Source of the DNA: Gemmatimonadaceae bacterium
GTDB taxonomy: Bacteria > Gemmatimonadota > Gemmatimonadetes > Gemmatimonadales > Gemmatimonadaceae
Direction: 5' to 3'
Length of the DNA stretch: 64,000 bases
Assembly (NCBI GenBank): GCA_019637355.1
Contig: JAHBVT010000001.1
Location: 62,001 to 126,000, forward strand
Both the position numbers and the translations under genes were made by a program. Positions 16,870 through 32,555 of this stretch are shown here, piece after piece. The notes below the pieces were generated by a model that was not told where the DNA came from, did no database searches, and saw only the letters and a program-made list of their open reading frames with translations. Every line of letters begins with the position of its first letter. Within the stretch, counting starts at the first letter, position 1.

Positions 16870-17811
16870 ATGCACCGTGCCCTGCTTGCACTCGTGATCG
16901 CGATCTCCGCGTGCCAAGGCGGCGATAGCGCTCAGGAGACGCTGACCGTGTTCAATGCGGGATCTCTGGCGCGTCCGCTCAAAGCGGCGCTCGACACGTT
17001 CGCGCGCCGTGAGAACGTCCGAGTGCATCAGGAGAGTGCGGGGTCGCTCGAAAGCGCACGCAAGCTGACCGAGCTCGGCAAGGTGCCCGACCTCATCGCG
17101 CTGGCAGACGCGGCGGTGTTTCCCCAGTATCTGGTTCCGCGGTATGTGACCAGCTACACGCTCTTCGCGCGCAACCGAATGGTGGTCGCGTTCACTGATC
17201 GCTCGCGTCACGCCCGGGAGATCGGCACGGCCAACTGGCCTGAGATTCTGACGCGCGCGGATGTCGACGTCGGTCGTTCGGATCCCGACCTGGATCCCAA
17301 CGGATACCGCACGCTGATGGTCTGGCAACTGATTGCGCGCACGCGCGGCGATGATGCCTTGGCGGCACGGCTCGAGGCGCAGGCGGTCCCTCGCAATGTC
17401 AGGGCCAAGGAGGCCGACCTCGTCGGGTTGCTCCAGGCGGGCGAACTGGACTACATCTGGTCGTACGAATCGATGGCCAAAGCCACCGGCCTGCGTTGGG
17501 TGATGCTTGGCGATTCGGTGGATCTCTCTCAGCCCGCCTTGGCTGATTTCTACGGTCAAGCACGCGTGGCCCTGCGCGGGGCGCGGGAGGGCGAACACGT
17601 CGTATTCACCGGTCAACCCATCGTCTACGCGCTGGCGGTGCCTGCTGAGGCGCCCAATCGCGCCCTCGGTGAACGTTTCGAGGCGTTTCTGCTCGGCGCC
17701 GAGGGACGCGCAATTCTCCGGCGTGAGGGGCTCGACGTGCTTGAGATGCCGCAAGTCGAACACGGAACGGCGAGTGCCGGCTTGCTGGCCGGGCGCGCCG
17801 CGCGCCGATGA
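16870..17811 (+). CDS. wtpA: Tungstate/molybdate-binding lipoprotein (WtpA/ModA family)
   Basis: Captures oxyanion at the inner-membrane surface for import. 313 residues; the lipobox IAISAC puts Cys at residue 15. The sequence follows archaeal-type WtpA closely: FNAGSLARPL, QESAGSLESARKLTELGK, PDLIALAD, SYTLFARNRMVVAFT and DPNGYRTLMVWQL. In that subfamily Asp and Glu add metal ligands; candidates here are the Asp of LDPNGYR and the Glu of WSYESMA. Tungstate, molybdate and sulfate cannot be told apart with certainty. It overlaps the permease gene as ATGA, starting a tightly coupled series of five genes. Confidence 0.88.
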   Translation: MHRALLALVIAISACQGGDSAQETLTVFNAGSLARPLKAALDTFARRENVRVHQESAGSLESARKLTELGKVPDLIALADAAVFPQYLVPRYVTSYTLFARNRMVVAFTDRSRHAREIGTANWPEILTRADVDVGRSDPDLDPNGYRTLMVWQLIARTRGDDALAARLEAQAVPRNVRAKEADLVGLLQAGELDYIWSYESMAKATGLRWVMLGDSVDLSQPALADFYGQARVALRGAREGEHVVFTGQPIVYALAVPAEAPNRALGERFEAFLLGAEGRAILRREGLDVLEMPQVEHGTASAGLLAGRAARR

Positions 17812-18614
17812 TGCGGCACCGGGGCGCGCACGCGGTAATGAGCGTCGCGGCGGCGCTGCTCGCATCGCTGCTGCTCCTGTTTCTTGCCGCGCCGATCCTA
17901 CGGTTAGTGGCCGAGGGTGGAGTCGAAGGCATCTCCCGCCTTGGTAGCGATGCGGAGCTCCGGCAGTCGCTGCTCCTCACGGGCGCTACGGCGACGGCCG
18001 CCACATTGCTGGGCGTGCTGGGAGGCACACCCATCGCGTGGCTCCTGGCCCGTCGCGAGTTCCCGGGGCGTGCGGCACTCTCGGCGCTGATTGACTTGCC
18101 GCTGGTCATTCCGCATCCGGTGGCCGGCATTGCCTTGCTGCTGTTGCTTGGGCGCGAGAGCGTCGTCGGCGGGGCGGCGCTAGACCTCGGGTTGCGCATC
18201 GTAGGCTCCCCGGTTGGCATCGTAGCCGCAATGCTGTTCGTGTCGGCCCCGCTCTTCGTCAGCGGCGCACGCGAGGCGTTCGCAAAAGTCGACGCCCGGT
18301 TCGAGGGGGTTGCGCGCACGCTCGGCGATGCCCCGTGGCAGGCGTTTCGGCGCGTGACCTTGCCGTTGGCGTCGCGCGGCCTCTTGGCGAGTGCTGTCGT
18401 GATGTGGGCGCGCGCCGTCAGTGAGTTTGGTGCCATCGTCATTCTGACCTACAACCCGAAGGTCGTGAGCGTGCTCAGCTACGATCGCTTTACGAGCTAC
18501 GGGCTCCGCGAGGCGCTGCCCGTGGCGGCTGCGCTGGCGCTGCTGGCGCTCATTCCGTTGACGTTGCTGCGAGCGCTCCGCGCAGAGGACGGTCGGCGAA
18601 AGGGACAGAGATGA
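17808..18614 (+). CDS. wtpB: Tungstate/molybdate ABC transporter permease
   Basis: 268 residues with about six membrane helices. The cytoplasmic EAA loop, EGVARTLGDAPWQAFRRVTL (residues about 165-184), is the ATPase docking motif of ModB/WtpB/CysT permeases. VISEFGA-type residues are replaced by RAVSEFGAIVILTYN, also typical of molybdate/tungstate permeases. It sits between the binding-protein and ATPase genes with four-base overlaps on both sides, so stoichiometric translation is likely. Confidence 0.9.
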   Translation: MMRHRGAHAVMSVAAALLASLLLLFLAAPILRLVAEGGVEGISRLGSDAELRQSLLLTGATATAATLLGVLGGTPIAWLLARREFPGRAALSALIDLPLVIPHPVAGIALLLLLGRESVVGGAALDLGLRIVGSPVGIVAAMLFVSAPLFVSGAREAFAKVDARFEGVARTLGDAPWQAFRRVTLPLASRGLLASAVVMWARAVSEFGAIVILTYNPKVVSVLSYDRFTSYGLREALPVAAALALLALIPLTLLRALRAEDGRRKGQR

Positions 18615-19690
18615 TCGCGCTCTCGGACATCGCCGCACGGAAGGGGCAGTTTCACCTGTCCGATGTGCGCGTTGCACTCGCGACGGGCGAGTATGGGGTG
18701 GTGATTGGACCGGCCGGCTCGGGGAAGACGACCTTGCTCGAGGTCGTCGCGGGGCTTCTCGCTCCGACCCACGGCACGGTGCATATCGACGGCGCGGATG
18801 TCGCTGGTGTGCCACCGGAGCGCCGTGCGCTCTCGCTCGTGTACCAACACGCCTATCTCTTTCCGCATCTCTCCGTGCAGGCGAACGTCGCCTATGGCGC
18901 GGCCGATGCGGCGACGCTGCAGGAAGTCGAAGATCGGCTCGAGGTGACGTCGCTCTACGGGCGCGACGTGCTCGCCCTCTCGGGCGGCGAACGGCAAGTG
19001 GTCGCGCTGGCACGCGCATTGGCACGTCGCCCTCGCCTGCTGCTGCTCGATGAGCCCTTCTCGGCGCTGGATCCGCGCCGCCGAGGGCTGGTGCGCCGCG
19101 AGGTGCGTGCATTCCACCGGCGTTGGGGTCTCACGACCCTACAGGTGACGCACGACTTCGCCGAGGCGGGGCTGCTGGGTGACCGAGCGATCCTCCTCGA
19201 CGGCGGACGGGTCCTGCAGCAGGGGACGCCGGCGGAAGTGTTTCGCCGGCCGGCCTCGCCGTACGTGGCGGAGTTTCTCGGCGCCGAGAACGTCTTCGGC
19301 GGCACGGCCCGCGAGTTGGGAGCACTGTCGCCGGACTGGGTGGACGGCGAACCGAGTGCGTACGCCCACGGGCATCGCGCGTTCGCGTTTGAGACGGAGG
19401 GGCTGACCTTGTACGCCGTGGGGGACTTCGCCCCGGGCGCGGGCCACGCCGTCATCCGCGCCGAGGAGATTACGCTTTCGCGCGACCAGAGCTTCGACTC
19501 GGCGCGAAATCGCTTCGCCGGACGCGTGCTGGAAGTGCAGACGCTGGGGGCGCTCACCCGTGTGACTGTCGAGGTTCAAGGGGTGCCGCTGGTGGCGGCG
19601 CTGACGACGCGATCGGCGCTGGAACTACGGCTGGAGCCAGGTCTCGCCGTGATCGCTACGTTCAAGGCTATGGCGGTGCACCTGTGCTGA
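18611..19690 (+). CDS. wtpC: Tungstate/molybdate ABC transporter ATPase with C-terminal oxyanion-binding region
   Basis: 359 residues. Walker A GPAGSGKT at 33-40, signature LSGGERQ at 123-129, Walker B LLLLDEPFSALDP from 142, and switch His in QVTHDFAEA. The segment between the Q-loop and the signature is short for the family. Residues about 225-359 form a TOBE/Mop-like domain (EEITLSRDQ, GALTRVTVEVQGVPLVA), which in ModC/WtpC can bind the oxyanion and inhibit transport. The end overlaps the glycosyltransferase gene by seven bases, so transport and glycan genes share one transcript. Confidence 0.9.
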   Translation: MIALSDIAARKGQFHLSDVRVALATGEYGVVIGPAGSGKTTLLEVVAGLLAPTHGTVHIDGADVAGVPPERRALSLVYQHAYLFPHLSVQANVAYGAADAATLQEVEDRLEVTSLYGRDVLALSGGERQVVALARALARRPRLLLLDEPFSALDPRRRGLVRREVRAFHRRWGLTTLQVTHDFAEAGLLGDRAILLDGGRVLQQGTPAEVFRRPASPYVAEFLGAENVFGGTARELGALSPDWVDGEPSAYAHGHRAFAFETEGLTLYAVGDFAPGAGHAVIRAEEITLSRDQSFDSARNRFAGRVLEVQTLGALTRVTVEVQGVPLVAALTTRSALELRLEPGLAVIATFKAMAVHLC

Positions 19691-21627
19691 TCTTCGACGG
19701 GCTGCGGTTCACCGCGTGGCGTGACGGGCATACGGGATCGCTCGCGATCGTGGCGGAGCACGTTGCGACGACGGTGGCAGCCCTTGCGCTGGTCCTCACG
19801 TGGATCGCGGTTGGCCGAGCCGTGCGGGATCGGCTGGAGCGTTCGCGCGGTGAGGGGACGCTGGACCTGAGCGGCGCCGTCATCCTTGACGCGGTGGTTG
19901 GGGCAGGCCTCCTCGCACTGGCGCTGCTCGCCGTCGGTGCGATCGGTCTGCTCACCAATGCCGCCGCGCTCGGCGTGGCGGGCGCCGCCTTGGTTGTCGT
20001 GCGCCGTGCCGCGTGGCGCAGCGCGGAGGAGATCGGGCGGGCGCTCCTGCGTGCGCCGCGCTGGAGCGTCGCGGCGGGCCTGGCGGTACTCGTCGCGGCG
20101 CTGGTCCCGGCACTGACGCCACCCGCGGAGTGGGATTCGCTGGCGTATCATTTGCGGATCCCGTTGGGCATTCTCGAGCGGGGTGACTTCGCGGTGCCAT
20201 CGGATTCGCGGGGCTATGCCACGCAGATTGGCGTCGCGCACCTCGCCACGTTGCCGCTCCTCGCGGCCGGACTGATGGAAGGTCCGTCCGTCGTGCACGT
20301 GCTGCTCCTGCCCGTGCTCATCGCGGGTACTGCGTCGCTCGCGCGTGCCCTCGGTGGGGTAGCCTCACGTTACATTGTCGCGGCCGTGTTGATCGGCTCG
20401 CCGGCGCTCGTGTTGGTCGCGTGGACCGCCCGAATTGACCTCTTCCTCGCCGTCGCGGCGCTCGGCGCGCATCGCGCCCTCACGTACGCGCTCGATGGCG
20501 CAGACGAAGGGCCAGTGTACCTCGCCGCGCTGGCGATCGGAACGGCCTTCGGCGTGAAGTCGCTCGGAGCTGCGTACATCGTCGCGCTGCTGCCACTGCT
20601 GCTGTTGCCGGCGGCGCTACCGTGGCCGCTTCGGGCGCGCGGAGCGATGCTGGCGTTCGTGGCCTGCGTCCCGTGGATGGCAAAGTCGTGGATGATCGCC
20701 GGCACGCCGCTGTACCCGCTGTGGTACTGGGGCGCCCTTGAGCCGTGGCTGGAGCAGCTCGCGACCGCTGCAGAACTCACCGGACCCATCGACCGCAGTG
20801 CGCTCTCGTCATTGGCGCGCGCGCGTGAACCGTTCGCCCTACTCGCGGCGTTCTTTGCGCCCGAGCGCCTGACGATCGAGGTCGAAGGGGTCTGGTACCG
20901 CCTGTCGCCGCTCCTGTTCGCCCTGCCGGTGGCTCTGCTGGTCCCGGGACGGCGTGTACGAGTCGTCGTGCACGCTGCCGTACCCTTGGTGTTCGTCGCA
21001 CTGGTCGTCTTACCCGCCACCGCCATCAACCTGCGCTACCTGCTGCCGGCGTATCCGGTCTTGGCGGCGCTCACGGCAGTGGGAATCGGCGCGCTTGTGC
21101 AGTTCGCCCCGAGGCTGCATCGGGCCATCGTGGCGACCGGGTGCATCGTGGCATTGCTTCCCGCACTGCATATGGTGCAGGCGCGCGGTACGCGCTTCGC
21201 GTGGCAAGCGAGGCACGCTGTCGGCGCGGTCGACGCCGAGTTGTTGCTCGCCCGCAACTCGGCATTGCGCTCCCTCGATCGCGTCGGCGACCAGTTGGCT
21301 GCGTCCGGGGCATCCGACGGCACGGTGCTGTTGCTCTGGGAGGCGCAAGCCCTAATGCTGCCGCAGCCTGCGATCATCGATGCGTTTCACGCCAACTGGC
21401 CGCTGCTTGCCCAGTTGGCTGCGGTCGAACACTGCCTGACGGGGTCTGGCATCCGGTGGGTCGTTGTGGGATGGAGCAGCCTGACCTTCTTTCAGTCGAA
21501 GGGCATCTCCGACGAGACGCTGCGACTCGCCGAGTTTGAACGCTTTCGTGCGCGCTGCCTCGGGGATCCTGTGTACGCGCGTGACGGCTACCTCGCCTTC
21601 GCGCTCCGCGCGGCGGCGGCGCCGTGA
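19684..21627 (+). CDS. GT-C fold membrane glycosyltransferase-like protein (paralog A)
   Basis: 647 residues, GTG start inside the end of wtpC. About 11-13 membrane helices and a soluble C-terminal domain. PPAEWDSLAYHLRIP after the third or fourth helix has the acidic residue and YH found in the first loop of polyprenyl-phosphate-dependent GT39/GT83-type (ArnT/PMT) enzymes, suggesting transfer of sugar from a lipid carrier on the periplasmic face. The C-terminal region (HANWPLL, HCLTGSGIRWVVVG) is shared with the protein at 22841-24724, so the two are paralogs. Acceptor unknown. Confidence 0.82.
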   Translation: MLIFDGLRFTAWRDGHTGSLAIVAEHVATTVAALALVLTWIAVGRAVRDRLERSRGEGTLDLSGAVILDAVVGAGLLALALLAVGAIGLLTNAAALGVAGAALVVVRRAAWRSAEEIGRALLRAPRWSVAAGLAVLVAALVPALTPPAEWDSLAYHLRIPLGILERGDFAVPSDSRGYATQIGVAHLATLPLLAAGLMEGPSVVHVLLLPVLIAGTASLARALGGVASRYIVAAVLIGSPALVLVAWTARIDLFLAVAALGAHRALTYALDGADEGPVYLAALAIGTAFGVKSLGAAYIVALLPLLLLPAALPWPLRARGAMLAFVACVPWMAKSWMIAGTPLYPLWYWGALEPWLEQLATAAELTGPIDRSALSSLARAREPFALLAAFFAPERLTIEVEGVWYRLSPLLFALPVALLVPGRRVRVVVHAAVPLVFVALVVLPATAINLRYLLPAYPVLAALTAVGIGALVQFAPRLHRAIVATGCIVALLPALHMVQARGTRFAWQARHAVGAVDAELLLARNSALRSLDRVGDQLAASGASDGTVLLLWEAQALMLPQPAIIDAFHANWPLLAQLAAVEHCLTGSGIRWVVVGWSSLTFFQSKGISDETLRLAEFERFRARCLGDPVYARDGYLAFALRAAAAP

Positions 21628-22856
21628 GCGGAACGCCTTCGCGACTCCTCATCACGACGTCCACCTTCCCAATGGCAAGGGACGACGCCACAAGTGCGCG
21701 ATTCGTCCTGGATCTCGCCCAGCACCTGACGGCTCACGCGAAGGTCTATGTGTTCGCTCCCGCGGGGCCCGCCACGGCGCCGCGGGAGCAGTGGGGGGAC
21801 GTGGTCGTGCACCGCTTCCGCTACTGGCTTCCCGCACGGGCGCAGCGACTGGCTGCGGGCGAGGGAATGGTGGCGACGATGCGTGCGAGCTGGCTGGCAC
21901 GCCTTCAGGCCCTGCCCTTCGTCACCTCCCAGTGGGCGCAACTGGGCCGCCTCGTACGGGACGAGCGCATCGAGCTGCTCAATCCGCACTGGATCGTGCC
22001 GCAGGGCCTGGTTGCAGCCCAGTGGAGCCGACGCCTGGGGCTCCCGGTCGTCGTCACGGCGCACGGCGCCGATGTCGCGTGGCTCGACCGGACGCGCGGG
22101 GGAGCTTTGCTTGCCCGGTATGTCTTCGGGCGCTCGCAGGGCCTGATTGCGGATTCGCAGGAGCTGGCATCGCGCACAGAGGTCATCGCCGGACGATCGA
22201 TTCCGCACGCAGCCATCCCGATGGGAGTGACGACGAGCGTATTTCGCCCGCTCGCGCCGCCGACGTCGGCGGAAGATGCTCGGCGCGTGCGGACCGTCGT
22301 CTTTGTGGGGAAGTTCGTCCCGAAGAAGGGCATCGATGTGTTGATTGACGCCTTCGCTGCGCTGCGCGCTCGGGGCGTGGTGGCACAGCTTGCGCTTATC
22401 GGCGGCGGGCCGCTTGAGTCCGCGCTCCGCGCCCAGGTGTCGCGCCTGGACCTCGACGCGTCGGTGGATTTCCGCGGCTGGGTGGCCAACCACGAGCTGC
22501 CGACTCAATACGCCCAGTCTGACGTCGTCTGCGTGCCCTCCGTCCAGGATGCGCACGGCGAAACGGAGGGGACGCCTGTCGTGCTGCAGGAGGCGATGGC
22601 CTGCGGTGCCGTGGTCGTGGCGTCACGCAGCAGCGGCATCAGCGACGTCGTGCAGGACGGCATCAACGGGTGGAGCGTACCGCCGAGCGACCCGCAGGCG
22701 CTTGCGGAGGCCATCGGGCGCGCCCTCGCAATGCCGCCGCTGGCCCGCGAGGCGATGCGCGTCGCCGCTCGCGACTCGGCCACGCGACACTCGTGGCCGC
22801 GTGTGGCCGAACGCTACTTCGAATTCTTTCGCGAGGCCGTTCAGCGCACCCGATAG
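21624..22856 (+). CDS. Glycosyltransferase family 4
   Basis: 410 residues, GT-B fold. N-terminal TFPMARDDATSARFVLDLA and a HGADVAW segment form the acceptor domain. The C-terminal domain has VVFVGKFVPKKGIDVLIDA (nucleotide-sugar side) and ETEGTPVVLQEAMACGAVVVAS, the E-x7-E signature of GT4. It adds a nucleotide-activated sugar to a growing glycan in the cytoplasm. GTG start overlaps the upstream stop (GTGA). Its 3' end overlaps the convergent GT-C gene by 16 bp. Confidence 0.92.
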   Translation: MSGTPSRLLITTSTFPMARDDATSARFVLDLAQHLTAHAKVYVFAPAGPATAPREQWGDVVVHRFRYWLPARAQRLAAGEGMVATMRASWLARLQALPFVTSQWAQLGRLVRDERIELLNPHWIVPQGLVAAQWSRRLGLPVVVTAHGADVAWLDRTRGGALLARYVFGRSQGLIADSQELASRTEVIAGRSIPHAAIPMGVTTSVFRPLAPPTSAEDARRVRTVVFVGKFVPKKGIDVLIDAFAALRARGVVAQLALIGGGPLESALRAQVSRLDLDASVDFRGWVANHELPTQYAQSDVVCVPSVQDAHGETEGTPVVLQEAMACGAVVVASRSSGISDVVQDGINGWSVPPSDPQALAEAIGRALAMPPLAREAMRVAARDSATRHSWPRVAERYFEFFREAVQRTR

Positions 22857-24724
22857 ATTGCGAGGCCCGGCAACACGGCCATCGGGTCGAGGCAGCGCTC
22901 GGCGAATGCGGGAAAGCGGTCCCAGCCCAGCGAGGCCAGGTCGAGTCCGCGCCGTTCGTAGTACCGCGGTGCCTCGAGGTTGACGTACACGTGCGTGATG
23001 CCAGTGCCGGCGAGACAACGCGCCGTCGCCCCGATACCTTCGAGCATCGGCCAGTTGGTCAGCAGATTGTCCTGGAGGGCGTTGCGCGTGAAGTGGTAGC
23101 CGCGCGCGTCCCAGAGCATCAGGACCGTCGCGTCTGGCGCTACCTGCTCGTCGAAGTAGCGCGCCACGACGTACGGTACCTCGCGGTTGAGCGCGACCTG
23201 GGCCGGCAGCAGGCCCAGGGCGATCTGCACCCGCTCCATCGAGAGCAGGCGTTCGCCTCCCCGTCGGAGCCCCAACAGCGCCGCGCCGCCCGCGAGCGCG
23301 ATCAGTAGTGTCGTCACGTACCGCATGCGCGGCACGCGCGACAGCGTCTCGCCGGCCCGCCGCCAGAGTTCCGCCGATGCGATCGCCAGCATCGGGAGCG
23401 CCGGCAGCAGGTACCGAAGGTTCGTCACGCTGAAGTACCCGAGCGTGAATGTGAGATAGGCGAGTCCTGGAACGGCGATGCCGAGCAACCGTCGGTCACG
23501 CAGGAAGAACGGGAGGAGCAACAGTGCAGCGTAGAGCGGATTCCTCGAGTAGGAGGCGCCCTCGACTTCGACGGTCAGGCGCTCTGGCCGCAGCACGAGC
23601 GCCGCGAGGGAGACGCGCTCCCGCGATCGTCCCACGCCGCGTAGTGACTCAGGATCGATGGTAGTCGGTACGCTATAGCTTCCCGTCAACTCGGCCACGA
23701 AGGGCTGCACGCGCGGCGCGCTGAAAAACGGATAGAACGGCGCGTCGAAATACGCGACGTTCTTCAGCAACCAGGGTGCCGAAGCCAACACGCCCAACGC
23801 CATCGCCAGGCCGACGGCACGCGCGTGGTGGCCGAGATTGCCCCCTGGGCGCCCCCTGAGTCCCCACAGCGCGAGCGGCACGAGCGCCGCCAGGTAGGGC
23901 AAGGCGTGATACTTCATCCCAAGCGCGATGCCGCCAAGGAGGCCCGCTACCGGGATCGCCCAGGCGCTCCGTTCGTCACCGGTGCGCAGTACGGCGCAAT
24001 GCGTCATCAGGAGCACGAAGGCCAGCGCGACGTCCACCCGAGGCGTGGCGCCGACAAAGAGCCACGCTGAACTGCCCCAGAGTGCCGTGGCCGCGAGCAC
24101 GCCCGTGCGGCGAGACAGCAGGCGGGTTCCCGCGACGAACACCCCGGCCCAGAGGGCCATCGCCATCGCTGCGTTCAAGAGGGCCGGGCCAGCTTCGGCA
24201 CCAATCGCCATCAACGGCAAGTACAGGAACTGGAACAGGCCCAGGAACGCCAGGTGGTTGCCGTCCGGGGGCAGGTACAGGCGCCCGGCGTCGAGAAACT
24301 GTCGGGGCAGCCTGAGATGGTACATCAGGGAATCCCAGTCCGAGACCGGGGTCAGCGCCGCAACGACGAGTATGAACAGTGCCGCCGTGGCGACGCCTAG
24401 CGTGACCGTCCGCTCAAGTGGTCCGAGCGCGCGCAAAAGTGACTCTAGGCTCCGCACCGCGGCGAGAACCTGTCGCCAGTCTCGCAGGCCGGGCAGGGCG
24501 GGCGCGATCACCGCCACCCAGAGCACCGCCGGATGCATCCATCCCAGCGCCGCGCACGCGAGCAGCAGCGCCGCCTGGATACCGATGCCGATGGCGAGCG
24601 CGTAGAGCAGGGATTCTCCTGGCCCCGACGCTGTGCGCAGCCTGCGTAGCACGGGGCCACCGGCGAGGGCGGCCGCGAGGAGGAGGACAGCGGTGGGTCC
24701 GAGCGCCCACGCGGGCCCGGTCAC
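22841..24724 (-). CDS. GT-C fold membrane glycosyltransferase-like protein (paralog B)
   Basis: 627 residues from the GTG at 24724, chosen because it forms a GTGA overlap with the GT2 gene upstream; the frame is open 22 codons further. Multiple membrane helices and TPVSDWDSLMYHLRLP, the same acidic/YH loop as paralog A. The C-terminal domain is also alike (TNWPMLEGIGATARCLAGTG). It likely receives lipid-linked sugar made by the GT2 partner and transfers it outside the membrane, as in ArnC/ArnT-type pairs; this pairing is inference from order and families. Confidence 0.82.
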   Translation of the reverse strand: MTGPAWALGPTAVLLLAAALAGGPVLRRLRTASGPGESLLYALAIGIGIQAALLLACAALGWMHPAVLWVAVIAPALPGLRDWRQVLAAVRSLESLLRALGPLERTVTLGVATAALFILVVAALTPVSDWDSLMYHLRLPRQFLDAGRLYLPPDGNHLAFLGLFQFLYLPLMAIGAEAGPALLNAAMAMALWAGVFVAGTRLLSRRTGVLAATALWGSSAWLFVGATPRVDVALAFVLLMTHCAVLRTGDERSAWAIPVAGLLGGIALGMKYHALPYLAALVPLALWGLRGRPGGNLGHHARAVGLAMALGVLASAPWLLKNVAYFDAPFYPFFSAPRVQPFVAELTGSYSVPTTIDPESLRGVGRSRERVSLAALVLRPERLTVEVEGASYSRNPLYAALLLLPFFLRDRRLLGIAVPGLAYLTFTLGYFSVTNLRYLLPALPMLAIASAELWRRAGETLSRVPRMRYVTTLLIALAGGAALLGLRRGGERLLSMERVQIALGLLPAQVALNREVPYVVARYFDEQVAPDATVLMLWDARGYHFTRNALQDNLLTNWPMLEGIGATARCLAGTGITHVYVNLEAPRYYERRGLDLASLGWDRFPAFAERCLDPMAVLPGLAIYRVR

Positions 24725-25698
24725 GGGGTCGTGTGGCGCGATGCGGTTGACTGGCGTGCCACCTGGTCCTGCAGTACGCGAAGCTGCCAATCGACGCGCT
24801 CGAGCAGCGAGCGGTTCACGGCGATGAGGTCGGCTACGAGGCCAACGACGACGAGGAAGAACCCGGTGCCGAGCAAGAGCGTGCCAAGGAGCAGCGATTG
24901 CAGGTGGCCGCTCCCGCTCCCGGCGAAGTAGTACAGTAGGAAACGCACCCCGATCGCGAAGCCGACTCCGAAGATGGCTGCGCCCGGCACCGCGAAGAAG
25001 GCAAAGGGGCGGTACGTCATAAAGATCCGGATGATTGTCAGCGTCTGGCGCCCCACGTACTGGGCTACACTGGAGGCCAAGCGCGACGGACGCGCTGCGG
25101 GGTTGACCTCGATTGGTATGGTCTCGATGGCCAAGCCCTTCTGTCCAGCCTGGATGATCGTCTCGACGGTGTACGTGTAGCGGTTGAAGACGTGCAGCCG
25201 CATCGCGGCCGTACGGGACATTGCCCGAAATCCCGACGGCGCATCCTCCACCTGCGTTCCGCTCGCGAGGCGCGTGACCCAGCTCCCGAGGCGCTGCAAC
25301 AGCTTCTTGAGCGGGGAGAACTCGCGTACCTCGCTGATCGGTCGGACTCCGACCACCAGTTCCGCGCGTCCGGCAACGACCGGGGCGACGAGTCGCTCGA
25401 TGTCCGCACCGCGATACTGCCCGTCGCCGTCGGTGTTGACAATGATGTCGGCGCCGAGCGCCACGGCGCGGTCGAGTCCGGCGAGGAAGGCGCGCGCCAG
25501 TCCGCCCTTCACCGGACGCCGCAGCACCGTGGCGCCCAGTCGTTCCGCTACGGCAGCGGTGCCGTCAGTGCTCCCGTCATCCACCACCAGTGGGATGATG
25601 CGCGAAATCCCCGGCAACGTCCGTGGGAGGTCCGCCAAGACCCGGGGGAGTGTCTGTTCTTCATTGTGGCAAGGAATCTGGATGACGAGCGTGGCCAT
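24721..25698 (-). CDS. Glycosyltransferase family 2, polyprenyl-phosphate sugar synthase-like
   Basis: 325 residues from ATG 25698. GT-A catalytic domain: IQIPCHNEEQTLP, VVDDGSTDGT, and DxD-type TDGDGQY. The DPM1/ArnC-like pattern is followed by EDAPSGFRAMSR, a sugar-lipid synthase feature, then two C-terminal membrane helices (about 225-295) and a basic coiled tail. It probably makes a polyprenyl-phosphate sugar used by the adjacent GT-C protein. The start lies only 28 bp from that of the divergent GT4 gene. Confidence 0.9.
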   Translation of the reverse strand: MATLVIQIPCHNEEQTLPRVLADLPRTLPGISRIIPLVVDDGSTDGTAAVAERLGATVLRRPVKGGLARAFLAGLDRAVALGADIIVNTDGDGQYRGADIERLVAPVVAGRAELVVGVRPISEVREFSPLKKLLQRLGSWVTRLASGTQVEDAPSGFRAMSRTAAMRLHVFNRYTYTVETIIQAGQKGLAIETIPIEVNPAARPSRLASSVAQYVGRQTLTIIRIFMTYRPFAFFAVPGAAIFGVGFAIGVRFLLYYFAGSGSGHLQSLLLGTLLLGTGFFLVVVGLVADLIAVNRSLLERVDWQLRVLQDQVARQSTASRHTTP

Positions 25699-25700
25699 GA

Positions 25701-25726
25701 CCGGAAATGTACATTCCACTCCGGTT
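25701..25726. promoter_or_regulatory. Palindrome in a 28-bp bidirectional start region
   Basis: AATGTACATT at 25706-25715 is a perfect 10-bp palindrome, flanked by GGA and CC, and CCGG lies at both sides (25701-25704, 25721-25724). It occupies the whole gap between two divergent start codons, so it is a candidate operator or shared promoter element. No regulator is identified. Confidence 0.5.
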
Positions 25727-26869
25727 ATGGCTATCGTCCTGCACGTTGTGTCGTACTATCCCCCCGATCGCATCGGCGGGGTGGGGGAGGTCGTCGCCAA
25801 CGTCCATCGCGGATTGCTGGCACGCGGTCATCGCTCGTGCGTGCTCACGTCGGGGACGAGCACCGACGATGCCAACGTCCTGCGCGTGGCCGCTACGCCG
25901 CTACGCTTCGCTCTTGCCGTTGCGCGCCTGGCGACTCTCGCCCGCGAAGCGGACGTGGTGCACCTCCATCACGGAGAGGGCATTGGCTTACTTATCGCGA
26001 TGCGCCTGCTTCGCATCAAGACGCCGGTGTTGTTGACGTTGCACGTGAACGTCGCGGCGATGATGCCGTCGATGCGCCCGTATCGTGCCGCTGGCCGCAC
26101 GTTCGGCGACTGGACGATGGCAGAGCGGTTCTATGCGACGGTGGTGATGCCAGCGCGTGCACTGATGGACCGTGTCGCGCTGGCGCTGGCAGATTCCGTG
26201 AGCTTCATCTCCCGTAGTGCGGCGCAGGATACGCTGGGTGCGGATGCCGCAGAGGGCGCCGTAATCATCTACAACGGCCTCGCCGCTGCTGCGACGCCAC
26301 GCGCTGAGGCAATCGATTCGTCGACGCTGCTCTTCGTCGGCAGCGGCTCGGTGCGCAAGCGCGTAGAGTCTCTGCCCTTGGTCTTGGCTGCCGTCCGTCG
26401 CCGACTTCCGTCCGCAACGCTGCGCATCATTGGGTTGGCCGCCGGCGACAACCAAGAACTGCTCACTGTTGCCGACGCGCTTGGTGTTCGTGATGCCCTG
26501 ATCTTCGAAGGGAGGAGACGCTCAGAAGAACTTCCCGCGTACTATCGAGCGTCTCAGGTGCTGCTCGTCCCGTCTGCCTACGAGGGACTGCCGATGGTCA
26601 TCCTCGAAGCACAGCAGCAGGGCCTGCCCTGCGTGGCAACTCGAGTAAGCGGACACCCCGAAGTCATTACCGATGGCGTGAACGGATACCTCGTGCCGCT
26701 CGACGACCCCGAGCAAATGGCCGCTGCCGCCCTTCGCGTTCTCGAAAACCCGGAGATTCGCGCACGAATGGCAATCAACGGCCAGCGTGAGATTGCATCG
26801 CGCTTCAGCGTGGCGCGTCAAGTCGAGGAATACCTCGCGCTCTACGCCACGCTCTGGAACGTCACGTGA
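25727..26869 (+). CDS. Glycosyltransferase family 4
   Basis: 380 residues from ATG 25727; the open frame extends far upstream through the antisense of the GT2 gene and is not used. YYPPDRIGGVGEVVANVHRG is the typical GT4 N-terminus with a Gly-rich loop. The donor domain includes LLFVGSGSVRKRVESLPLV, and the E-x7-E motif is YEGLPMVILEAQQQGLPCVA. It starts a five-base-coupled run of plus-strand glycan genes; the stop overlaps the next GTG as GTGA. Specificity unknown. Confidence 0.92.
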   Translation: MAIVLHVVSYYPPDRIGGVGEVVANVHRGLLARGHRSCVLTSGTSTDDANVLRVAATPLRFALAVARLATLAREADVVHLHHGEGIGLLIAMRLLRIKTPVLLTLHVNVAAMMPSMRPYRAAGRTFGDWTMAERFYATVVMPARALMDRVALALADSVSFISRSAAQDTLGADAAEGAVIIYNGLAAAATPRAEAIDSSTLLFVGSGSVRKRVESLPLVLAAVRRRLPSATLRIIGLAAGDNQELLTVADALGVRDALIFEGRRRSEELPAYYRASQVLLVPSAYEGLPMVILEAQQQGLPCVATRVSGHPEVITDGVNGYLVPLDDPEQMAAAALRVLENPEIRARMAINGQREIASRFSVARQVEEYLALYATLWNVT

Positions 26870-27720
26870 ACGTACGCACCGCACGCATTCTGCGCGGGAG
26901 CATCGCAGTGGTCGCGATGGCGATGCTCGTCTGGTATGTCGGGCCGGCGGCACTACTGCAGACGCTCGCGCGCACGCACGCAGGATACGTGATCGGATAC
27001 TTCGCGGCATTTCTGGCCGTACCCTACATTTACGGAATGCAGTTGCACGGTGCGCTGCGCCTGGCAGGGCACGGAATCCCCGTTCAGGACACCGTTCGCG
27101 CGGCCGCGCAGTCGTGGAGCGTAGGTTCGCTGACGCCGGCGCGGGCTGGCGACCTGAGCTTCGCTTACTTTCTCCGCGGTGCGGTGCCTGAACGCGATGC
27201 ACTGGCCGTCGTGTTTGCCGATAAGTTGTTGAGCCTGCTGGTGCTTGTCCTGCTCGCCATCGGCTCGGCATTTGTGGTCGAGGTACCCTATCGCGAAGCA
27301 CTGATTATGGCTGCGTCGCTGGCCTCCGGCGGCGTCCTTGGCGTCCTGCTGCTCACGCGGATACCGCGACTCGAGCCACTGCGCGTCCTGCTTGCCAAGT
27401 CACGCGTGGTGCCGTGGACTCTCGTGATGGCGATGCTTCGATGGGCGTACATCTGCGCCATCAACCTGCTCATATTTCGGGCCGTCGGTTATTCGCCGGG
27501 ACTCGCGACGGTGACGGCCGCGACCGCGGTGGGGCGGCTCATCGCCACCGTACCCGTGTCGATCGGTGGCGTCGGCATCAAGGAACCCGCACAGATCCTC
27601 ATCTACGCGGGTGCTGCCGTACCGGCCGAAGCAGTGGTGGCGGTGTCCGTGCTCGGGATGGCCTGTGGCTTCGCCGTCGCTGCCGTGGTGCCGCTGCTGG
27701 TTAGGGGAGTGGCGCGATGA
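26866..27720 (+). CDS. Lysylphosphatidylglycerol synthase-type transmembrane (flippase-like) protein
   Basis: 284 residues with about seven to eight membrane helices and no soluble domain. SWSVGSLTPARAGDLSFAYF and VSIGGVGIKEPAQI correspond to conserved elements of the UPF0104/AglD-C-terminal family (PF03706). Homologs fused to MprF flip lipids; stand-alone members sit in glycan loci and are suspected to translocate or modify lipid-linked sugars. GTG start and ATGA end overlap both neighbours. Role here is inference. Confidence 0.85.
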   Translation: MNVRTARILRGSIAVVAMAMLVWYVGPAALLQTLARTHAGYVIGYFAAFLAVPYIYGMQLHGALRLAGHGIPVQDTVRAAAQSWSVGSLTPARAGDLSFAYFLRGAVPERDALAVVFADKLLSLLVLVLLAIGSAFVVEVPYREALIMAASLASGGVLGVLLLTRIPRLEPLRVLLAKSRVVPWTLVMAMLRWAYICAINLLIFRAVGYSPGLATVTAATAVGRLIATVPVSIGGVGIKEPAQILIYAGAAVPAEAVVAVSVLGMACGFAVAAVVPLLVRGVAR

Positions 27721-28772
27721 CTGCGCTCCCCGTCTTGGCGTGGCGCTACTGGCGCGCGAACCAGCGGCTCGGCCATCCGCTGCAGGTCGGCTTCGCCGTG
27801 AACAACACCTGCAACACGTTCTGCGAGATGTGCAATGTCTGGCAGATGAAGCCGAAGTCGCAGCTCGGACTCGAGGAGATTCGTCGCATCTTCTCTTCCG
27901 GACTCTTCAAGCACTGCGCCACCATCAGTATGACAGGTGGCGAGCCGAGCATGCGCCGAGACTTCCGGGAATTGCCGGAACTGTTTGCCGACGTAATGCC
28001 GGCGCTCCGCCAGGTGAATCTGACCTCGAACGGGTTTGCGACCGAGGCAATCGTGGATGGCGTCGAGCACTTCGTGCCGCGGCTCCGCGCACGGGGCATC
28101 GCGTTCGGTGTAAACCTCTCGATTGATGGCATCGGGAAGACGCACGACAAGGTGCGCAACAACCCCAAGGCCTGGGCGAACCTTGACGCCAGCGTGCAGG
28201 CGCTCGTCGCGCTGCGCCGCCGCATCCCGTTCAACCTCGTCTTGGCCTGCACGTTTACGCACAGCAATGTGGATGACGCCGAAGCAGTGCTCGAGTATGC
28301 CAAGGCACACGATGTCTATGTGGTGTTTCGACGCGCCGCGCAAATCAACCGCATCGAGAACCAGGACCTGTACGCCGAGGTGCAGCCCACGGCGGCGCAG
28401 GACACCGCGCTCAAGGCATTCTTCGAGCACGTGCGGACGAACTACGATCGTTCGCACGCGCGCAGGATCTACTATGGAATGTTGCTGGAGATGCTGAATG
28501 GTGCAGAGCGGTCGGTGCCTTGTCTCTATCGGAAAGCGGGGCTCTTTGTCGATCATCACGGGGATCTCTACGTCTGCACGGTCGCCAGCAAGAACCTCGG
28601 TTCGGCGCTTGAGCGTGATGCCGAGGAACTCTACTTCGGATCGCTAGCCTACCGCGACGAGATGGCCTGTGGGCCCTGTCGCGGTTGCTCGCACGACGTG
28701 ACGCTCTACACGCCGCTGCTGGATCAGGTGGCGGATCGCCTGCGCGCGGCCGTTACGAAGGTGAAGCGGTGA
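27717..28772 (+). CDS. Radical SAM protein with C-terminal Cys cluster (SPASM-like)
   Basis: 351 residues. Cys32-x3-Cys36-x2-Cys39 (NTCNTFCEMCN) binds the [4Fe-4S] cluster for SAM cleavage; SMTGGEPSMRRD is the SAM-contacting GGE motif. The C-terminal part has CLYRKAGLFVDHHGDLYVC, then CGPCRGC, a SPASM-like auxiliary-cluster pattern. Members near glycosyltransferases may modify a sugar, lipid or peptide, but the substrate is not evident. ATGA and GTGA overlaps join it to the flippase-like and pyruvyltransferase genes. It would depend on Fe-S assembly. Confidence 0.88.
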   Translation: MTALPVLAWRYWRANQRLGHPLQVGFAVNNTCNTFCEMCNVWQMKPKSQLGLEEIRRIFSSGLFKHCATISMTGGEPSMRRDFRELPELFADVMPALRQVNLTSNGFATEAIVDGVEHFVPRLRARGIAFGVNLSIDGIGKTHDKVRNNPKAWANLDASVQALVALRRRIPFNLVLACTFTHSNVDDAEAVLEYAKAHDVYVVFRRAAQINRIENQDLYAEVQPTAAQDTALKAFFEHVRTNYDRSHARRIYYGMLLEMLNGAERSVPCLYRKAGLFVDHHGDLYVCTVASKNLGSALERDAEELYFGSLAYRDEMACGPCRGCSHDVTLYTPLLDQVADRLRAAVTKVKR

Positions 28773-29944
28773 AGGCGTTCGCCTATCTGGCCGAGCTTGC
28801 ACTCGCGCTCCTGTTCCTGCCGGCCGTCCGCGCATTGCGCCTGCTCGGCTGGCGACCGGCACGAGCGAGCATCGTGGGCTGGTGGGGATCGGAGACCATC
28901 GGTGACATCGCCATCCTTGGTCAGCTGCTCACCGAGTGTCGTGCAATCGCCGCGACAGCTCCGTTGGACGTCGTTAGCTTCGATGCGCGCGTCACCCGAG
29001 CGACGCTGCGAATGCTCGGCTACCGCGACGTCCGCTGCCTTCCGCTCGGCGTCCTGTCTGCCTGGGCTCTCGTCGCGTCTCGCTGCATCATTGTCGGCGG
29101 TGGCCCGTTGATGGAGAGTCCGAGTATGAGATTCTGGGCTTGGCGGCATCGCCTCGTGCGCGCGGCTGGTGGTCGCGTGCTCCTATATGCTAACGGCATC
29201 GGCCCGGTACGGAGTGCGGGCGGCGCGGAGACAATTGTCTCGATCCTGCACAACGCGAGCCACGTGGTGCTCCGCGATAGTACCTCTGTCGCTTGGAGCG
29301 CCGTGCACGCCAAGCGTACCGACGCGGTGCTGAGTTTCGATCCGGCATTCGATTTCGTGCGTACCCTGCACACGCCGGGCCTCACGCGCCGCCGGCAGCT
29401 AGCGCTCGCCTTGCGAAGCCCGTCGGTCCCGTACCTCGATGGAGTCGAGGAGGGGCTGGCGACCGAGCAGTTCCTTGAGGTGCTTGCCGCAGCGCTCAAC
29501 CACATCAGCGCAACGACGGACCTGCGGTTCGTCGGTCTCGTGATGCACGACGGCAGTGATGACGCGGCGATGTATGCGCGTTTGCGCCGGAAGCTCAGCG
29601 ATCCCGCGCGCCTGCACGTCCCGGAAAACCAAGATGTGACGGCCATCGTTCGCTTGCTCGAGTCGTCGCAGGCCGCGCTCACGGTGCGATTCCACGCCAT
29701 GATCTTCGCGCTAGCCACGGACACACCCTTCGTCGCCATCGACTACGCCCGCCCGCAGGGCAAGGTCACCGCCGCAGCGATAGACGTTCGGTGTGGGGAT
29801 GCCGTACTCGCCTGGGACACTGTGACGGAATCTGCGCTCCGTATGGGCTTGCAGCGGGCGCTTGATGCGGGAGGTGCCTCCTCCCGAGACGTGAGCGCGG
29901 CATCGTCCGCGCGACGTGCCGTCCTAGGTGCCGCGCTCGCCTGA
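28769..29944 (+). CDS. Polysaccharide pyruvyl transferase family protein
   Basis: 391 residues from GTG 28769, which overlaps the preceding stop (GTGA). The GT-B-like fold of PF04230 (CsaB/WcaK type) is shown by GWWGSETIGDIAILGQLL near the N-terminus, VGGGPLMES in the first domain and a conserved TVRFHAMIFALATDTPFVAIDY in the second. Family members transfer pyruvate ketal from PEP onto a hexose of surface polymers. A hydrophobic stretch at residues 5-22 may associate it with the membrane. Its 3' end overlaps the convergent methyltransferase by 21 bp. Confidence 0.87.
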   Translation: MKAFAYLAELALALLFLPAVRALRLLGWRPARASIVGWWGSETIGDIAILGQLLTECRAIAATAPLDVVSFDARVTRATLRMLGYRDVRCLPLGVLSAWALVASRCIIVGGGPLMESPSMRFWAWRHRLVRAAGGRVLLYANGIGPVRSAGGAETIVSILHNASHVVLRDSTSVAWSAVHAKRTDAVLSFDPAFDFVRTLHTPGLTRRRQLALALRSPSVPYLDGVEEGLATEQFLEVLAAALNHISATTDLRFVGLVMHDGSDDAAMYARLRRKLSDPARLHVPENQDVTAIVRLLESSQAALTVRFHAMIFALATDTPFVAIDYARPQGKVTAAAIDVRCGDAVLAWDTVTESALRMGLQRALDAGGASSRDVSAASSARRAVLGAALA

Positions 29945-30655
29945 CTTCCGTGCCACCGCGACATAGCCGGCTGCAAACAGGCCGCGGCGATCCAGCAGTC
30001 GATCCAGCCACAGGGCCGGCCAAACCAGCAAAGCTTGGTTGACTCCGTACACGAGCTGCCGCAACAGGGGCACCGGCCACGCAAGGCCGAGCAGGACCGT
30101 GGACAGTTGGTGACCGAGAAAACTCAACACGCCTGCGATCGGTTCAACACGCACTGCCGTCAGCCCTGCGTCGTGCAGCATCGTGCGCAATCCGTGAACC
30201 GTGTACCGGAAGTAGTCGTGCGGCTCCTCGTGCAACCGGGACAGATGCGGCACGGTGAGCAAGAGTACGCCACCGGGCTTCAGCACGCGGGCCATCTCGC
30301 CCACGGCGCGCTGCGGGTGCGGCAGGTGTTCGAGCACCTCGAACGAGAACACAGAGTCGTATGTATCGGACGCGAGACCCGTCATCGCCTCCGCGTCACC
30401 GATGTGCGTGACCCCGTCAGTGCGGCGCTCAACGTCGAAGCCTTCGTATGCCGTGACGTGGCGCAGCGCGAAGTGACGAAACGGCATATGCCCGCAGCCG
30501 ACGTCCAGCACGCGACCCGTGGCGTACTCTGTGATCGCCGCGCGAGTGGCCGCAAATCGCCCCGCATTGAGTGCGGAGAAGTTCGCGTAGCGGCCCTCGC
30601 CGATCGCATCCGAGAGCTCGGCGCGATTACGGCGGAGGAAGTCGAGGAATCCCAC
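29924..30655 (-). CDS. Class I SAM-dependent methyltransferase (UbiE/type 11 family)
   Basis: About 243 residues if started at GTG 30655, just after the ggt stop; upstream frame exists but no ATG. Motif I VLDVGCGHMPF binds SAM; then DAEAMTGLASDTYDSVFSFEVLEHLPHP and LKPGGVLLLTVPH, typical of methyltransferase type 11. The C-terminal 60 residues are hydrophobic (VLSFLGHQLSTVLLGLAWPV), suggesting membrane association. It closes the glycan locus on the opposite strand, so it may methylate a lipid or sugar there; ggt upstream is an unlikely functional partner. Confidence 0.83.
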   Translation of the reverse strand: MGFLDFLRRNRAELSDAIGEGRYANFSALNAGRFAATRAAITEYATGRVLDVGCGHMPFRHFALRHVTAYEGFDVERRTDGVTHIGDAEAMTGLASDTYDSVFSFEVLEHLPHPQRAVGEMARVLKPGGVLLLTVPHLSRLHEEPHDYFRYTVHGLRTMLHDAGLTAVRVEPIAGVLSFLGHQLSTVLLGLAWPVPLLRQLVYGVNQALLVWPALWLDRLLDRRGLFAAGYVAVARKSGERGT

Positions 30656-30674
30656 GATCAGTTCCGGGTCGTTC

Positions 30675-32555
30675 TTACCACGCGATCCCGTAGTCCTCAC
30701 CGAAGTTGCTCGCCGCACCCCAGAGCGTCCCCGTCCGCCGGTCCCGCATAATCGCCGTGATCGGCCCCGAGGTGTGGCTGGCGAACTCCAGCGAGTACCC
30801 CTTCGCGCGCAGCTCGTCGCGCACCCAGCCTGGCACGCGCTCGTTCAACTGCATCCGCCCCGGCCGCGCCTCGTGCTGGCCGAAGCTCGTGCGCATCTGG
30901 TAGGAGTGGAAACCGGGATGCTCCGCCGCCTGCTGCGGCGTCTGCCCGAACTCCACCATCGCGAGGAAGAACTGCAAGAGGTCCTGGTCCTGCGTGTCGC
31001 CGCCCTGCACCGAGAACGCCATCCAGGGCTCGCCGTCGCGGAAGGCCAGCGTGGGCGTCAGCGTCACGCGCGGCTGCTTGCCCGGCTCGACGACGTTGAA
31101 CGGTCCGTCCTCGGGATCGGTGACGAAGCTCTGCATCCGCTGCGAAAGGCCGATGCCCGTGCGGCCGGCGATGTACGCCGGCACCCACCCGCCTGACGGC
31201 GTGATGCTCACCATCCAGCCGTTCTTGTCGGCGGCCTGGATGCTGGTCGTGCCGCGCGTGAAGGCTTCGTCAAACTCCTCGTCGCTGCTCCGATTGGCCT
31301 CGCCGCCCGCCGCGTTCGGGCGCGGCATCGGCCGCGGACCCTCGGTGCTCCAGCGCTCGAGGAGAGCGGTGTAGGGGTTGGTGCCGCCCTGGAAGGGATA
31401 CGGATCGCCGGGCTTCACCCGCGGGTCGTTGCGCGTGTGGTCCATCTGCGCCCAGCGGCTCCGCGCGTACTCCTTGCTGAGCAGACCCTGGATCGGTTCT
31501 TCGGGCGGGAACGCCGGATCGCCGTAGTAGAAGTCGCGGTCGGCGAAGGCGAGGTTCATCGCCTGATACACGGTGTGAATGTACTGCGCCGAGTTGTAGC
31601 CCATCGCCTTGAGGTCGGCGTTCTCGAGGATGTTCAGCGCCTGCAGCATCGCCGGGCCCTGCTGCCACTGCTGCAGCTTGTAGACCGTGACGCCGCGGTA
31701 GGTCGTCGAGAGCGGTTCCTCGATCTTCACGCGCCAGTTGGCGAGGTCCTCGCGTGTGAACAGGCCGCCCTCCTCCTGCACCGCGCGCACGATCTCCTCG
31801 GCGATGTCGCCGCGGTAAAAGCGATCATAGGCGGCCATAATGGCTTCCTTGCGCGGACGCCGGCGCCTGAGGGCCTGCGCCTCGGCCTCGATGAGCTTGC
31901 GGAACGTCGCGGCCAGGTCCCCCTGCCGGAAGATCTCGCCCGCTATCGGCGCCTCGCGCTCCCGGTCCGTGTGCGGGAGGAACACCGGGCGCGAGTACTT
32001 CCATTCGCGCAAGCGCCGCGCCTGCGCGTTGATCGAGTTCGCCAGCTGCGCTTCGATCGGGTAGCCCTGCTCGGCCATCTGCAGCGCCGGCGCCAGCACC
32101 TGGGCCAGCGACATCGTGCCGTATTCGGCGAGCATCACCATCAGCGCGCCGGGCGTGCCGGGCGTGACCGCAGCCAGGGGACCGTACTCCGGCGGGAACT
32201 GCATCCCGCGGTTGCGGAAGTACTCGGCGGTCGCGCCGGTGGGGGCGACGCCGAGCCCGTTGATGCCGATGACCTTCTTGAGGCCCGGATGGTAGATGAG
32301 GGCCTGGGTCTCGCCGCCGCAGCCGAGCGTGTCCCACATCGTGCAGGTGGCCGCGAGCATCGCGACGGCGGCGTCGACGGCATTGCCGCCCTGCTGGAAG
32401 ATCATCGCGCCCGCCGTCGCGGCTAGCGGCTTCCCGGTGACGGCCACCCAGTGCTGGCCGTGGAGCGGAGGCCGCTCGGTGCGCTGGGCGTCGGAGGTGG
32501 CCGGGAGGGCGGAGAGTGCCACCAGGCTGCAGAGGGCGGAGAGCTGGATGCGCAT
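30675..32555 (-). CDS. ggt: Gamma-glutamyltransferase (exported)
   Basis: Cleaves or transfers the gamma-glutamyl group of glutathione-like substrates in the periplasm. 626 residues from ATG 32555, with signal peptide MRIQLSALCSL... ending TSDAQ. The Ntn-hydrolase precursor has GGNAVDAAVA near the start and GTTSIQAADKNGWMVSITPS at the self-cleavage site, where the second Thr is the probable nucleophile; canonical enzymes show TTHFSVVD, so the flanking residues differ. Later SPTL-like and GGDTQDQDLLQ segments fit the family. About 150 residues between subunits are charged and longer than in E. coli. Confidence 0.9.
   Translation of the reverse strand: MRIQLSALCSLVALSALPATSDAQRTERPPLHGQHWVAVTGKPLAATAGAMIFQQGGNAVDAAVAMLAATCTMWDTLGCGGETQALIYHPGLKKVIGINGLGVAPTGATAEYFRNRGMQFPPEYGPLAAVTPGTPGALMVMLAEYGTMSLAQVLAPALQMAEQGYPIEAQLANSINAQARRLREWKYSRPVFLPHTDREREAPIAGEIFRQGDLAATFRKLIEAEAQALRRRRPRKEAIMAAYDRFYRGDIAEEIVRAVQEEGGLFTREDLANWRVKIEEPLSTTYRGVTVYKLQQWQQGPAMLQALNILENADLKAMGYNSAQYIHTVYQAMNLAFADRDFYYGDPAFPPEEPIQGLLSKEYARSRWAQMDHTRNDPRVKPGDPYPFQGGTNPYTALLERWSTEGPRPMPRPNAAGGEANRSSDEEFDEAFTRGTTSIQAADKNGWMVSITPSGGWVPAYIAGRTGIGLSQRMQSFVTDPEDGPFNVVEPGKQPRVTLTPTLAFRDGEPWMAFSVQGGDTQDQDLLQFFLAMVEFGQTPQQAAEHPGFHSYQMRTSFGQHEARPGRMQLNERVPGWVRDELRAKGYSLEFASHTSGPITAIMRDRRTGTLWGAASNFGEDYGIAW

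Follow-up and report, generated by a model that had tools for sequence, protein, structure and literature searches.

The DNA analysed here, referred to as the window, is a stretch of 64,000 nucleotides (C1:62001-126000) from the 3.15-Mb genome of a soil-type Gemmatimonadaceae bacterium. Between an ATP-binding cassette (ABC) transporter operon and a gamma-glutamyltransferase-like gene it carries nine genes at 19684-30700, all with open reading frames (ORFs). An initial annotation had described two paralogous GT-C proteins, a GT2 and two GT4 glycosyltransferases, a flippase-like protein, a radical S-adenosylmethionine (SAM) enzyme, a pyruvyltransferase and a methyltransferase, and all nine are present by computed Pfam and NCBIfam matches and by fold (Table 1). 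The start it had given, 19684, agrees with the (uncertain) start of GTC1; the end, 30655, is not correct, as the methyltransferase gene begins at about 30700. Comparison with related genomes shows that the nine genes occupy a slot whose flanks are fixed and whose contents are exchanged, and distant relatives of the radical SAM enzyme are linked to glycosyltransferase genes when set against controls.

Nine genes in four blocks

The genes lie in four blocks on alternating strands, GTC1-GT4a (+), GT2-GTC2 (-), GT4b-FLIP-rSAM-PyrT (+) and MT (-), with three 4-bp overlaps linking GT4b, FLIP, rSAM and PyrT. At the right end, the start of MT lies inside the end of GGT, a gene named gamma-glutamyltransferase-like from its sequence. 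At the left end, the ABC ATPase has WtpC as its top NCBIfam match, at 285 bits, under the cut-off of 440. Pfam and NCBIfam matches were judged by curated cut-offs throughout.

Table 1. Genes of the locus and of its two flanks, with positions in the window
Feature	Position	Strand	Remarks
ABC transporter, three genes, tungstate/molybdate-like	16870-19690	+	Left slot flank; binding protein 16870-17811, permease 17808-18614, ATPase 18611-19690
GTC1, GT-C glycosyltransferase paralogue	19684-21627	+	7-bp overlap with ABC ATPase end; start codon uncertain
GT4a, GT4 glycosyltransferase	21624-22856	+	Start 21624 or 21672; PF00534 126 bits
GTC2, GT-C glycosyltransferase (predicted)	22841-24724	-	ORF up to 24790
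GT2, polyprenyl-phosphate-sugar synthase-like (DPM1-like) glycosyltransferase	24721-25698	-	ORF up to 25719; PF00535 73.9 bits
GT4b, GT4 glycosyltransferase	25727-26869	+	Opens four-gene run; PF00534 116 bits
FLIP, flippase-like membrane protein	26866-27720	+	PF03706, TIGR00374
rSAM, radical SAM enzyme	27717-28772	+	Radical_SAM PF04055 46.3 bits, cut-off 29.5
PyrT, polysaccharide pyruvyltransferase, CsaB-like	28769-29944	+	PF04230 (PS_pyruv_trans) 85.6 bits, cut-off 25.3
MT, class I SAM methyltransferase	29924-30700	-	PF13489 59.6 bits, cut-off 27; 26-bp overlap with GGT
GGT, gamma-glutamyltransferase-like	30675-32555	-	Right slot flank; ORF up to 32597

Neither GT-C protein has a Pfam match above cut-off (GTC2 reaches 20.4 bits with PMT_2, cut-off 26.1). 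The two are paralogous, with 31.7% identity across 561 aa (E 3e-48). An AlphaFold model of GTC2, built on 11 aligned sequences and with a pLDDT of 88, matches ArnT (Z 22.5, rmsd 4.9 Å, 428 residues), ALG12 (Z 22.2) and Pmt4 (Z 21.3), and Foldseek also recovers ArnT at E 1e-7. In this model GTC2 has the GT-C membrane fold, and its homology to GTC2 would place GTC1 in the same superfamily. Residues D131, Y135 and H136, in the first extracytoplasmic loop, are invariant in 11 of 11 sequences of the alignment that includes both proteins (A3); acidic and histidine residues of this loop have a catalytic role in GT-C enzymes. FLIP passes both its family models (PF03706, 74.5 bits against 33.4; TIGR00374, 52.5 against 43.2). 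The sole match to anti-phage defence was a weak mads_2 hit to MT (E 2e-7), which we dismissed as a generic methyltransferase.

A slot with fixed flanks and exchanged contents

Of 17 genus genomes, 13 have both the ABC ATPase and the GGT gene and the other four have neither; GGT is 75-87% identical in the 12 genomes other than that of the window. Both flanks lie on one contig in 11 genomes and on separate contigs in G227 and G409. Three of the 11 slots are empty, with only 19 bp (G317), 39 bp (G232) or 43 bp (G217) from flank to flank. The remaining eight are filled, with gaps of 10.98 kb (window), 6.98 kb (G183), 6.56 kb (G408), 3.14 kb (G023), 4.27 kb (G087), 4.31 kb (G245), 6.79 kb (G407) and 20.47 kb (G070). 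Their contents differ between genomes and are mostly glycan- or lipid-modifying genes: a GT2, two methyltransferases, a fatty acid desaturase and a sulfatase-family protein in G183; a GT2, methyltransferases and a GT-C-like protein in G408; a GT-C-like protein, a methyltransferase, a GT2 and a second methyltransferase in G087; and a GT4, an HprK-like protein, a flippase-like protein, a DUF4142 protein, GTC2 and GT2 in G407. In G070, the GT4, HprK-like and flippase-like (PF03706) genes seen in G407 recur together at one slot end and GTC2-GT2 at the opposite end, separated by about 14 kb of other genes. With its fixed flanks, differing contents and empty sites, the slot swaps mostly glycan- and lipid-acting genes among relatives.

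One part of the window set recurs. GT2 has relatives at 65-73% identity in three congeners; of 297 further genomes sampled from the phylum, 8 carry a GTC2 relative. GT2 and GT-C genes are also neighbours in G070 and G407, where the GT2-GTC2 pair adjoins GGT, and lie within 6 kb of each other in G228. Relatives of GT4a (35-37%) stand beside the ABC ATPase in G070 and G407. Three of the eight filled slots (window, G407 and G070) combine the GT2 and GT-C pair with a GT4 and a flippase-like protein. The G070 flippase-like protein matches PF03706 at 44.4 bits; that of G407 has no Pfam match and is named by its resemblance to the G070 counterpart, and FLIP has no significant similarity to this positional counterpart in G407. 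The HprK-like protein, which lies between the GT4 and flippase-like genes of the G070 and G407 slots (L224 2634-3668, L225 5549-6583), has 344 aa and weak PEPCK/HprK-type matches.

The GT4b-FLIP-rSAM-PyrT block is far rarer. At E 1e-15, rSAM has matches in 6 of 395 genomes of the phylum, five of them besides the window genome at 25-28% identity, and at better than 2e-19 the window genome stands alone. PyrT (threshold E 1e-20) and FLIP (threshold E 1e-12) were each found in 1 of 346 phylum genomes, the window genome itself. A single-protein scan of genome contigs with rSAM gave 12 pattern stretches and no relatives, and a plasmid collection queried with rSAM gave 13 records, all below 40% identity and all MoaA or generic radical SAM proteins. 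The four genes have a GC content at third codon positions (GC3) of 0.73-0.81; the window averages 0.873 (sd 0.053), and GGT has 0.931. Since close rSAM, FLIP and PyrT matches are confined to the window genome and GC3 is low, we read the block as an acquired, foreign-looking module on an older GT2 and GT-C core. In a quick tree the window rSAM forms a long branch (2.3 changes per column) beside other long branches, and we therefore claim no donor lineage.

These comparisons bear on the view of the initial annotation that the locus may build an unusual surface lipid or polymer. The corresponding explanation, that the nine genes together form a dedicated pathway to one unusual glycolipid and are simply rare in the genus, draws on their lying together with overlaps at nearly every junction and on the restriction of the rare matches to this genome. 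We consider it unlikely: in G070 and G407 GT2 and GTC2 are found without the remaining genes, relatives exchange slot contents piece by piece, and the strands alternate. The nine genes do not make up a single conserved pathway. As close relatives keep the flanks and swap the contents, a modular cassette fits better than a single polymer locus. The initial annotation had named scattering of the genes in close relatives as counting against its view, and this is partly the case, the genes being replaced and not scattered.

Promoter and terminator scans came out at about shuffle level (1 versus 1.4 and 10 versus 7.9) and were not used. Just past the right flank, the region 32738-34137 holds a carbonic-anhydrase-like gene and, overlapping it by 4 bp, a TetR-like regulator gene (both named by eye).

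The radical SAM enzyme and the neighbourhoods of its relatives

The CX3CX2C motif of rSAM (C32-X3-C36-X2-C39) is invariant in 35 of 35 aligned sequences (alignment A2), and the predicted model, with a pLDDT of 85, matches SkfB (Z 24.2), BlsE (22.6), DesII (19.4) and BtrN (17.7). Motif and modelled core fold put the protein in the radical SAM superfamily, so the first half of the initial label 'radical SAM/SPASM-like' is upheld. The second half is too strong. A full SPASM domain has seven C-terminal cysteines and two auxiliary clusters; rSAM has five (269, 287, 318, 321 and 324) and no match to PF13186 at E up to 0.01, and judged by these features is not a full SPASM protein. Its C-terminal cysteine set appears partial and twitch-like: profile A2 matches the C-terminal part of BtrN (E 7e-15), and a twitch domain, with one auxiliary 4Fe-4S cluster, takes about four cysteines where rSAM has five. 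In seven of the 35 rows of A2 (L042, L051, L053, L058, L068, L071 and L086) CX3CX2C is kept and the cysteines aligned to 269 and 287 are gone, as if the auxiliary cluster had been lost; six of these seven rows are titled Patescibacteria, Parcubacteria or Falkowbacteria.

By profile and fold, the nearest proteins include both peptide enzymes (SkfB, SuiB and anSME) and sugar or nucleotide enzymes (BlsE, DesII, BtrN and viperin). No NCBIfam cut-off is passed by rSAM (TIGR03961, the PTO1314 family, reaches 59.1 bits against 306), and an NCBIfam tally over the 35 members of A2, made without cut-offs so that single members may still pass one, gave no specific owner family.

For context we turned to the genes around distant relatives. 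Eighty loci encoding rSAM relatives (22-33% identity) were taken from GTDB genomes and ranked by similarity to the window protein; one lacked two neighbours at ±3 genes, leaving 79. The patterns used for these case loci came from an alignment with Gemmatimonadota radical SAM proteins, at least one of them beside glycan genes, and the set may lean that way. L097 and L103, near-identical loci of one genome, were both counted, and L035, apparently on the wrong strand, was counted as called. Controls were 40 radical SAM genes of the same genomes, of which L164 and L181 were dropped as identical to L036 and L060, leaving 38.

Of the 79 loci of rSAM relatives, 66 have a GT2, GT4 or GT-C gene no more than three genes away, against 1 of 20 MoaA-like and 2 of 18 other radical SAM controls. 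A glycosyltransferase is the immediate neighbour in 50 of 75 loci, against 0 of 17 and 1 of 17 controls. For the wider context (66/79 versus 3/38) Fisher's P is 1e-15, with loci that are not fully independent. The glycosyltransferase profiles behind the 66 of 79 were iteratively trained on the same loci; Pfam tallies, which are free of that bias and cover 131 case and 148 control neighbours, a size-limited part of all, give PF00534 in 22/131 and PF00535 in 13/131 case neighbours (26 of 31 chosen case loci), against PF00535 in 3/148 control neighbours and PF00534 outside the top 25 families (28 of 38 control loci). Case neighbours further include Wzy_C (5) and UDP-sugar dehydrogenase (3). The link of rSAM relatives to glycosyltransferase genes is thus established against controls, and the neighbourhood comparison suggested by the initial annotation is strongly positive for glycan loci.

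Individual loci give a more detailed picture. In L004, of the window's own family, genes for a GT2 (C-terminal part), a PF03706 protein (116.5 bits), a radical SAM protein and a membrane protein follow one another. In L033 and L036 the gene forms a tandem array with two other radical SAM genes and an epimerase-like gene, with a carbamoyltransferase in L036; a GT9 heptosyltransferase-family gene adjoins the radical SAM gene in L033. In the euryarchaeal locus L034 (7755-15301), a radical SAM gene lies amid heptose- and nucleotide-sugar-like genes, by eye a sugar isomerase, a HAD phosphatase, a kinase and a nucleotidyltransferase.

These neighbours count against the notion that rSAM acts on a protein or peptide, as in RiPP-like or enzyme maturation, and is among glycan genes only incidentally. 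SkfB, SuiB and anSME among the nearest solved folds, and weak matches to many NCBIfam peptide-maturase models, favour a peptide substrate. Yet the 4-bp overlaps of the block leave no space between its genes for a precursor gene, rSAM passes no family cut-off, and glycosyltransferase genes neighbour the relatives far more often than the controls. We regard a peptide substrate as improbable.

Interpretation and comparison with known systems

Taken together, the nine genes are probably a horizontally assembled, modular and exchangeable cassette that builds and decorates a lipid-linked cell-surface glycan, in a slot with swapped contents. The assignment of the locus to glycan or glycolipid synthesis in the initial annotation agrees with this. 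Polyprenyl-phosphate-linked sugar chemistry at the membrane is indicated by the GT-C fold, by the pairing of GT2 with a GT-C protein, by the flippase-like protein and by the pyruvyltransferase. From these components we infer a substrate, a set of reactions, a direction of transport and a final product. In the cytoplasm, GT2 would load a sugar onto polyprenyl phosphate, and GT4a, GT4b and PyrT would assemble and pyruvylate a short glycan. Judging by its family, FLIP may carry the lipid-linked sugar or glycan across the membrane, where GTC1 and GTC2, with their predicted fold, could pass sugars from the polyprenyl-phosphate donor to an outside acceptor, as ArnT does on lipid A. From its place and fold, rSAM would modify a sugar of the glycan or its precursor through 5'-deoxyadenosyl-radical chemistry, for example by oxidation, epimerisation or deoxygenation, and MT would O-methylate the glycan. 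The GT4b-FLIP-rSAM-PyrT run would be a separate module joined to the older core.

Several observations weigh against this interpretation. As the four blocks lie on alternating strands, the cassette may comprise more than one pathway. In G070, genes without glycosyltransferase, methyltransferase or flippase matches take up much of the 20-kb slot, and the G023 slot has no glycosyltransferase, its only genes encoding a weakly methyltransferase-like protein of 473 aa and a sulfatase-family protein. The ABC transporter genes likewise have a low GC3 (0.76-0.81), so that composition is a weaker indicator of foreign origin. With relatives of only 22-33% identity and a long, unplaced branch for the window protein, rSAM may not share their function; the two nearest relatives, L033 and L036, lie among other radical SAM genes and without a GT2 or GT4 within three genes. 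Fold comparison does not separate sugar from peptide substrates, with SkfB and SuiB scoring above BlsE, DesII and BtrN.

A further alternative concerns the rest of the genome. No Wzx, Wzy, Wza or initiating transferase is among the Pfam matches of the nine genes, as the initial annotation had stated for the locus; the statement does not extend to the genome, in which two Poly_export (Wza-type) and two initiating-transferase (PF02397) genes lie at C1:1160184-1176979, about 1.05 Mb from the window. This cluster looks like a conventional exopolysaccharide locus, which makes the window locus an accessory one. The nine genes might tailor that exopolysaccharide, a proposal to which the Wza-type cluster and the lack of an initiating enzyme in the window locus lend some weight. 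We find it doubtful: GT-C proteins with a polyprenyl-phosphate-sugar GT2 normally serve lipid A, S-layer or teichoic-type acceptors, not Wzy polymers, and nothing here connects the two loci.

Beyond the window, we suggest tentatively that rSAM, which stands beside a PF03706 protein and a pyruvyltransferase, belongs as a divergent member to a broad, uncurated, twitch-like radical SAM set from many bacterial phyla, candidate phyla and archaea that may act on surface-glycan sugars, perhaps on lipid-linked intermediates; some Patescibacteria members that have lost the auxiliary-cluster cysteines may have changed chemistry. Radical SAM enzymes acting on sugars are known mostly from antibiotic pathways. 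Judging by the neighbours of the relatives, surface-glycan loci of bacteria and archaea may commonly involve radical sugar chemistry, carried out by proteins not specifically named by the family models examined. To our knowledge, little is known of the surface chemistry of Gemmatimonadota, and the slot is a defined site of glycan-gene turnover in this phylum, with empty, simple and complex versions directly comparable. New here are this variable slot with its empty and filled versions and the glycosyltransferase context of the distant relatives of rSAM.

The initial annotation had found the gene combination unfamiliar. Searches of open-access papers on radical SAM together with glycan, polysaccharide, antigen, capsule, S-layer or glycosyltransferase gave, by title and start of abstract, no description of this locus, no homologous locus tied to a known polymer and no glycan role assigned to this radical SAM set; open-access papers on Gemmatimonas gave nothing relevant. 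Looser parallels exist. A plasmid cluster of Brachyspira hyodysenteriae is reported to have radical SAM genes beside group 1 glycosyltransferase, epimerase and rfb genes and to be, like the slot, present in some strains and missing in others; it differs in lying on a spirochaete plasmid, is likened by gene context and not by homology, and is reported with no biochemical function (PMC4267127). A radical SAM protein is likewise reported among Campylobacter capsule-region genes (PMC8743553).

Single genes resemble better-known enzymes to differing degrees. PyrT passes PF04230 and resembles CsaB, the enzyme of pyruvylated secondary cell-wall polymers (TIGR03609, 105.5 bits, E 3e-30), but at half the CsaB cut-off score of 213, and its neighbours are a radical SAM and a PF03706 protein, not S-layer genes. 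The best NCBIfam model for GT2 is the archaeal AglJ (TIGR04182, 111.2 bits), yet under its cut-off of 325. A polyprenyl-phosphate-sugar GT2 beside a GT-C protein whose model matches ArnT recalls ArnC/ArnT-type transfer; however, GTC2 is only 12% identical to ArnT in the structural alignment, and the locus has two GT-C paralogues and two GT4 enzymes. With BtrN, BlsE and DesII, which act on antibiotic sugars, rSAM shares the radical SAM core and a partial auxiliary-cluster cysteine set, but it is 11-15% identical to them in structural alignments, and peptide enzymes score equally high.

The slot itself resembles O-antigen and capsule loci of the galF-gnd type, which are exchanged between fixed flanks. 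It differs from them in being smaller, in having no Wzx, Wzy, Wza or initiating enzyme, and in holding sulfatase-family and desaturase genes in other genomes; it shares with them conserved flanks, interchangeable glycan genes and empty sites.

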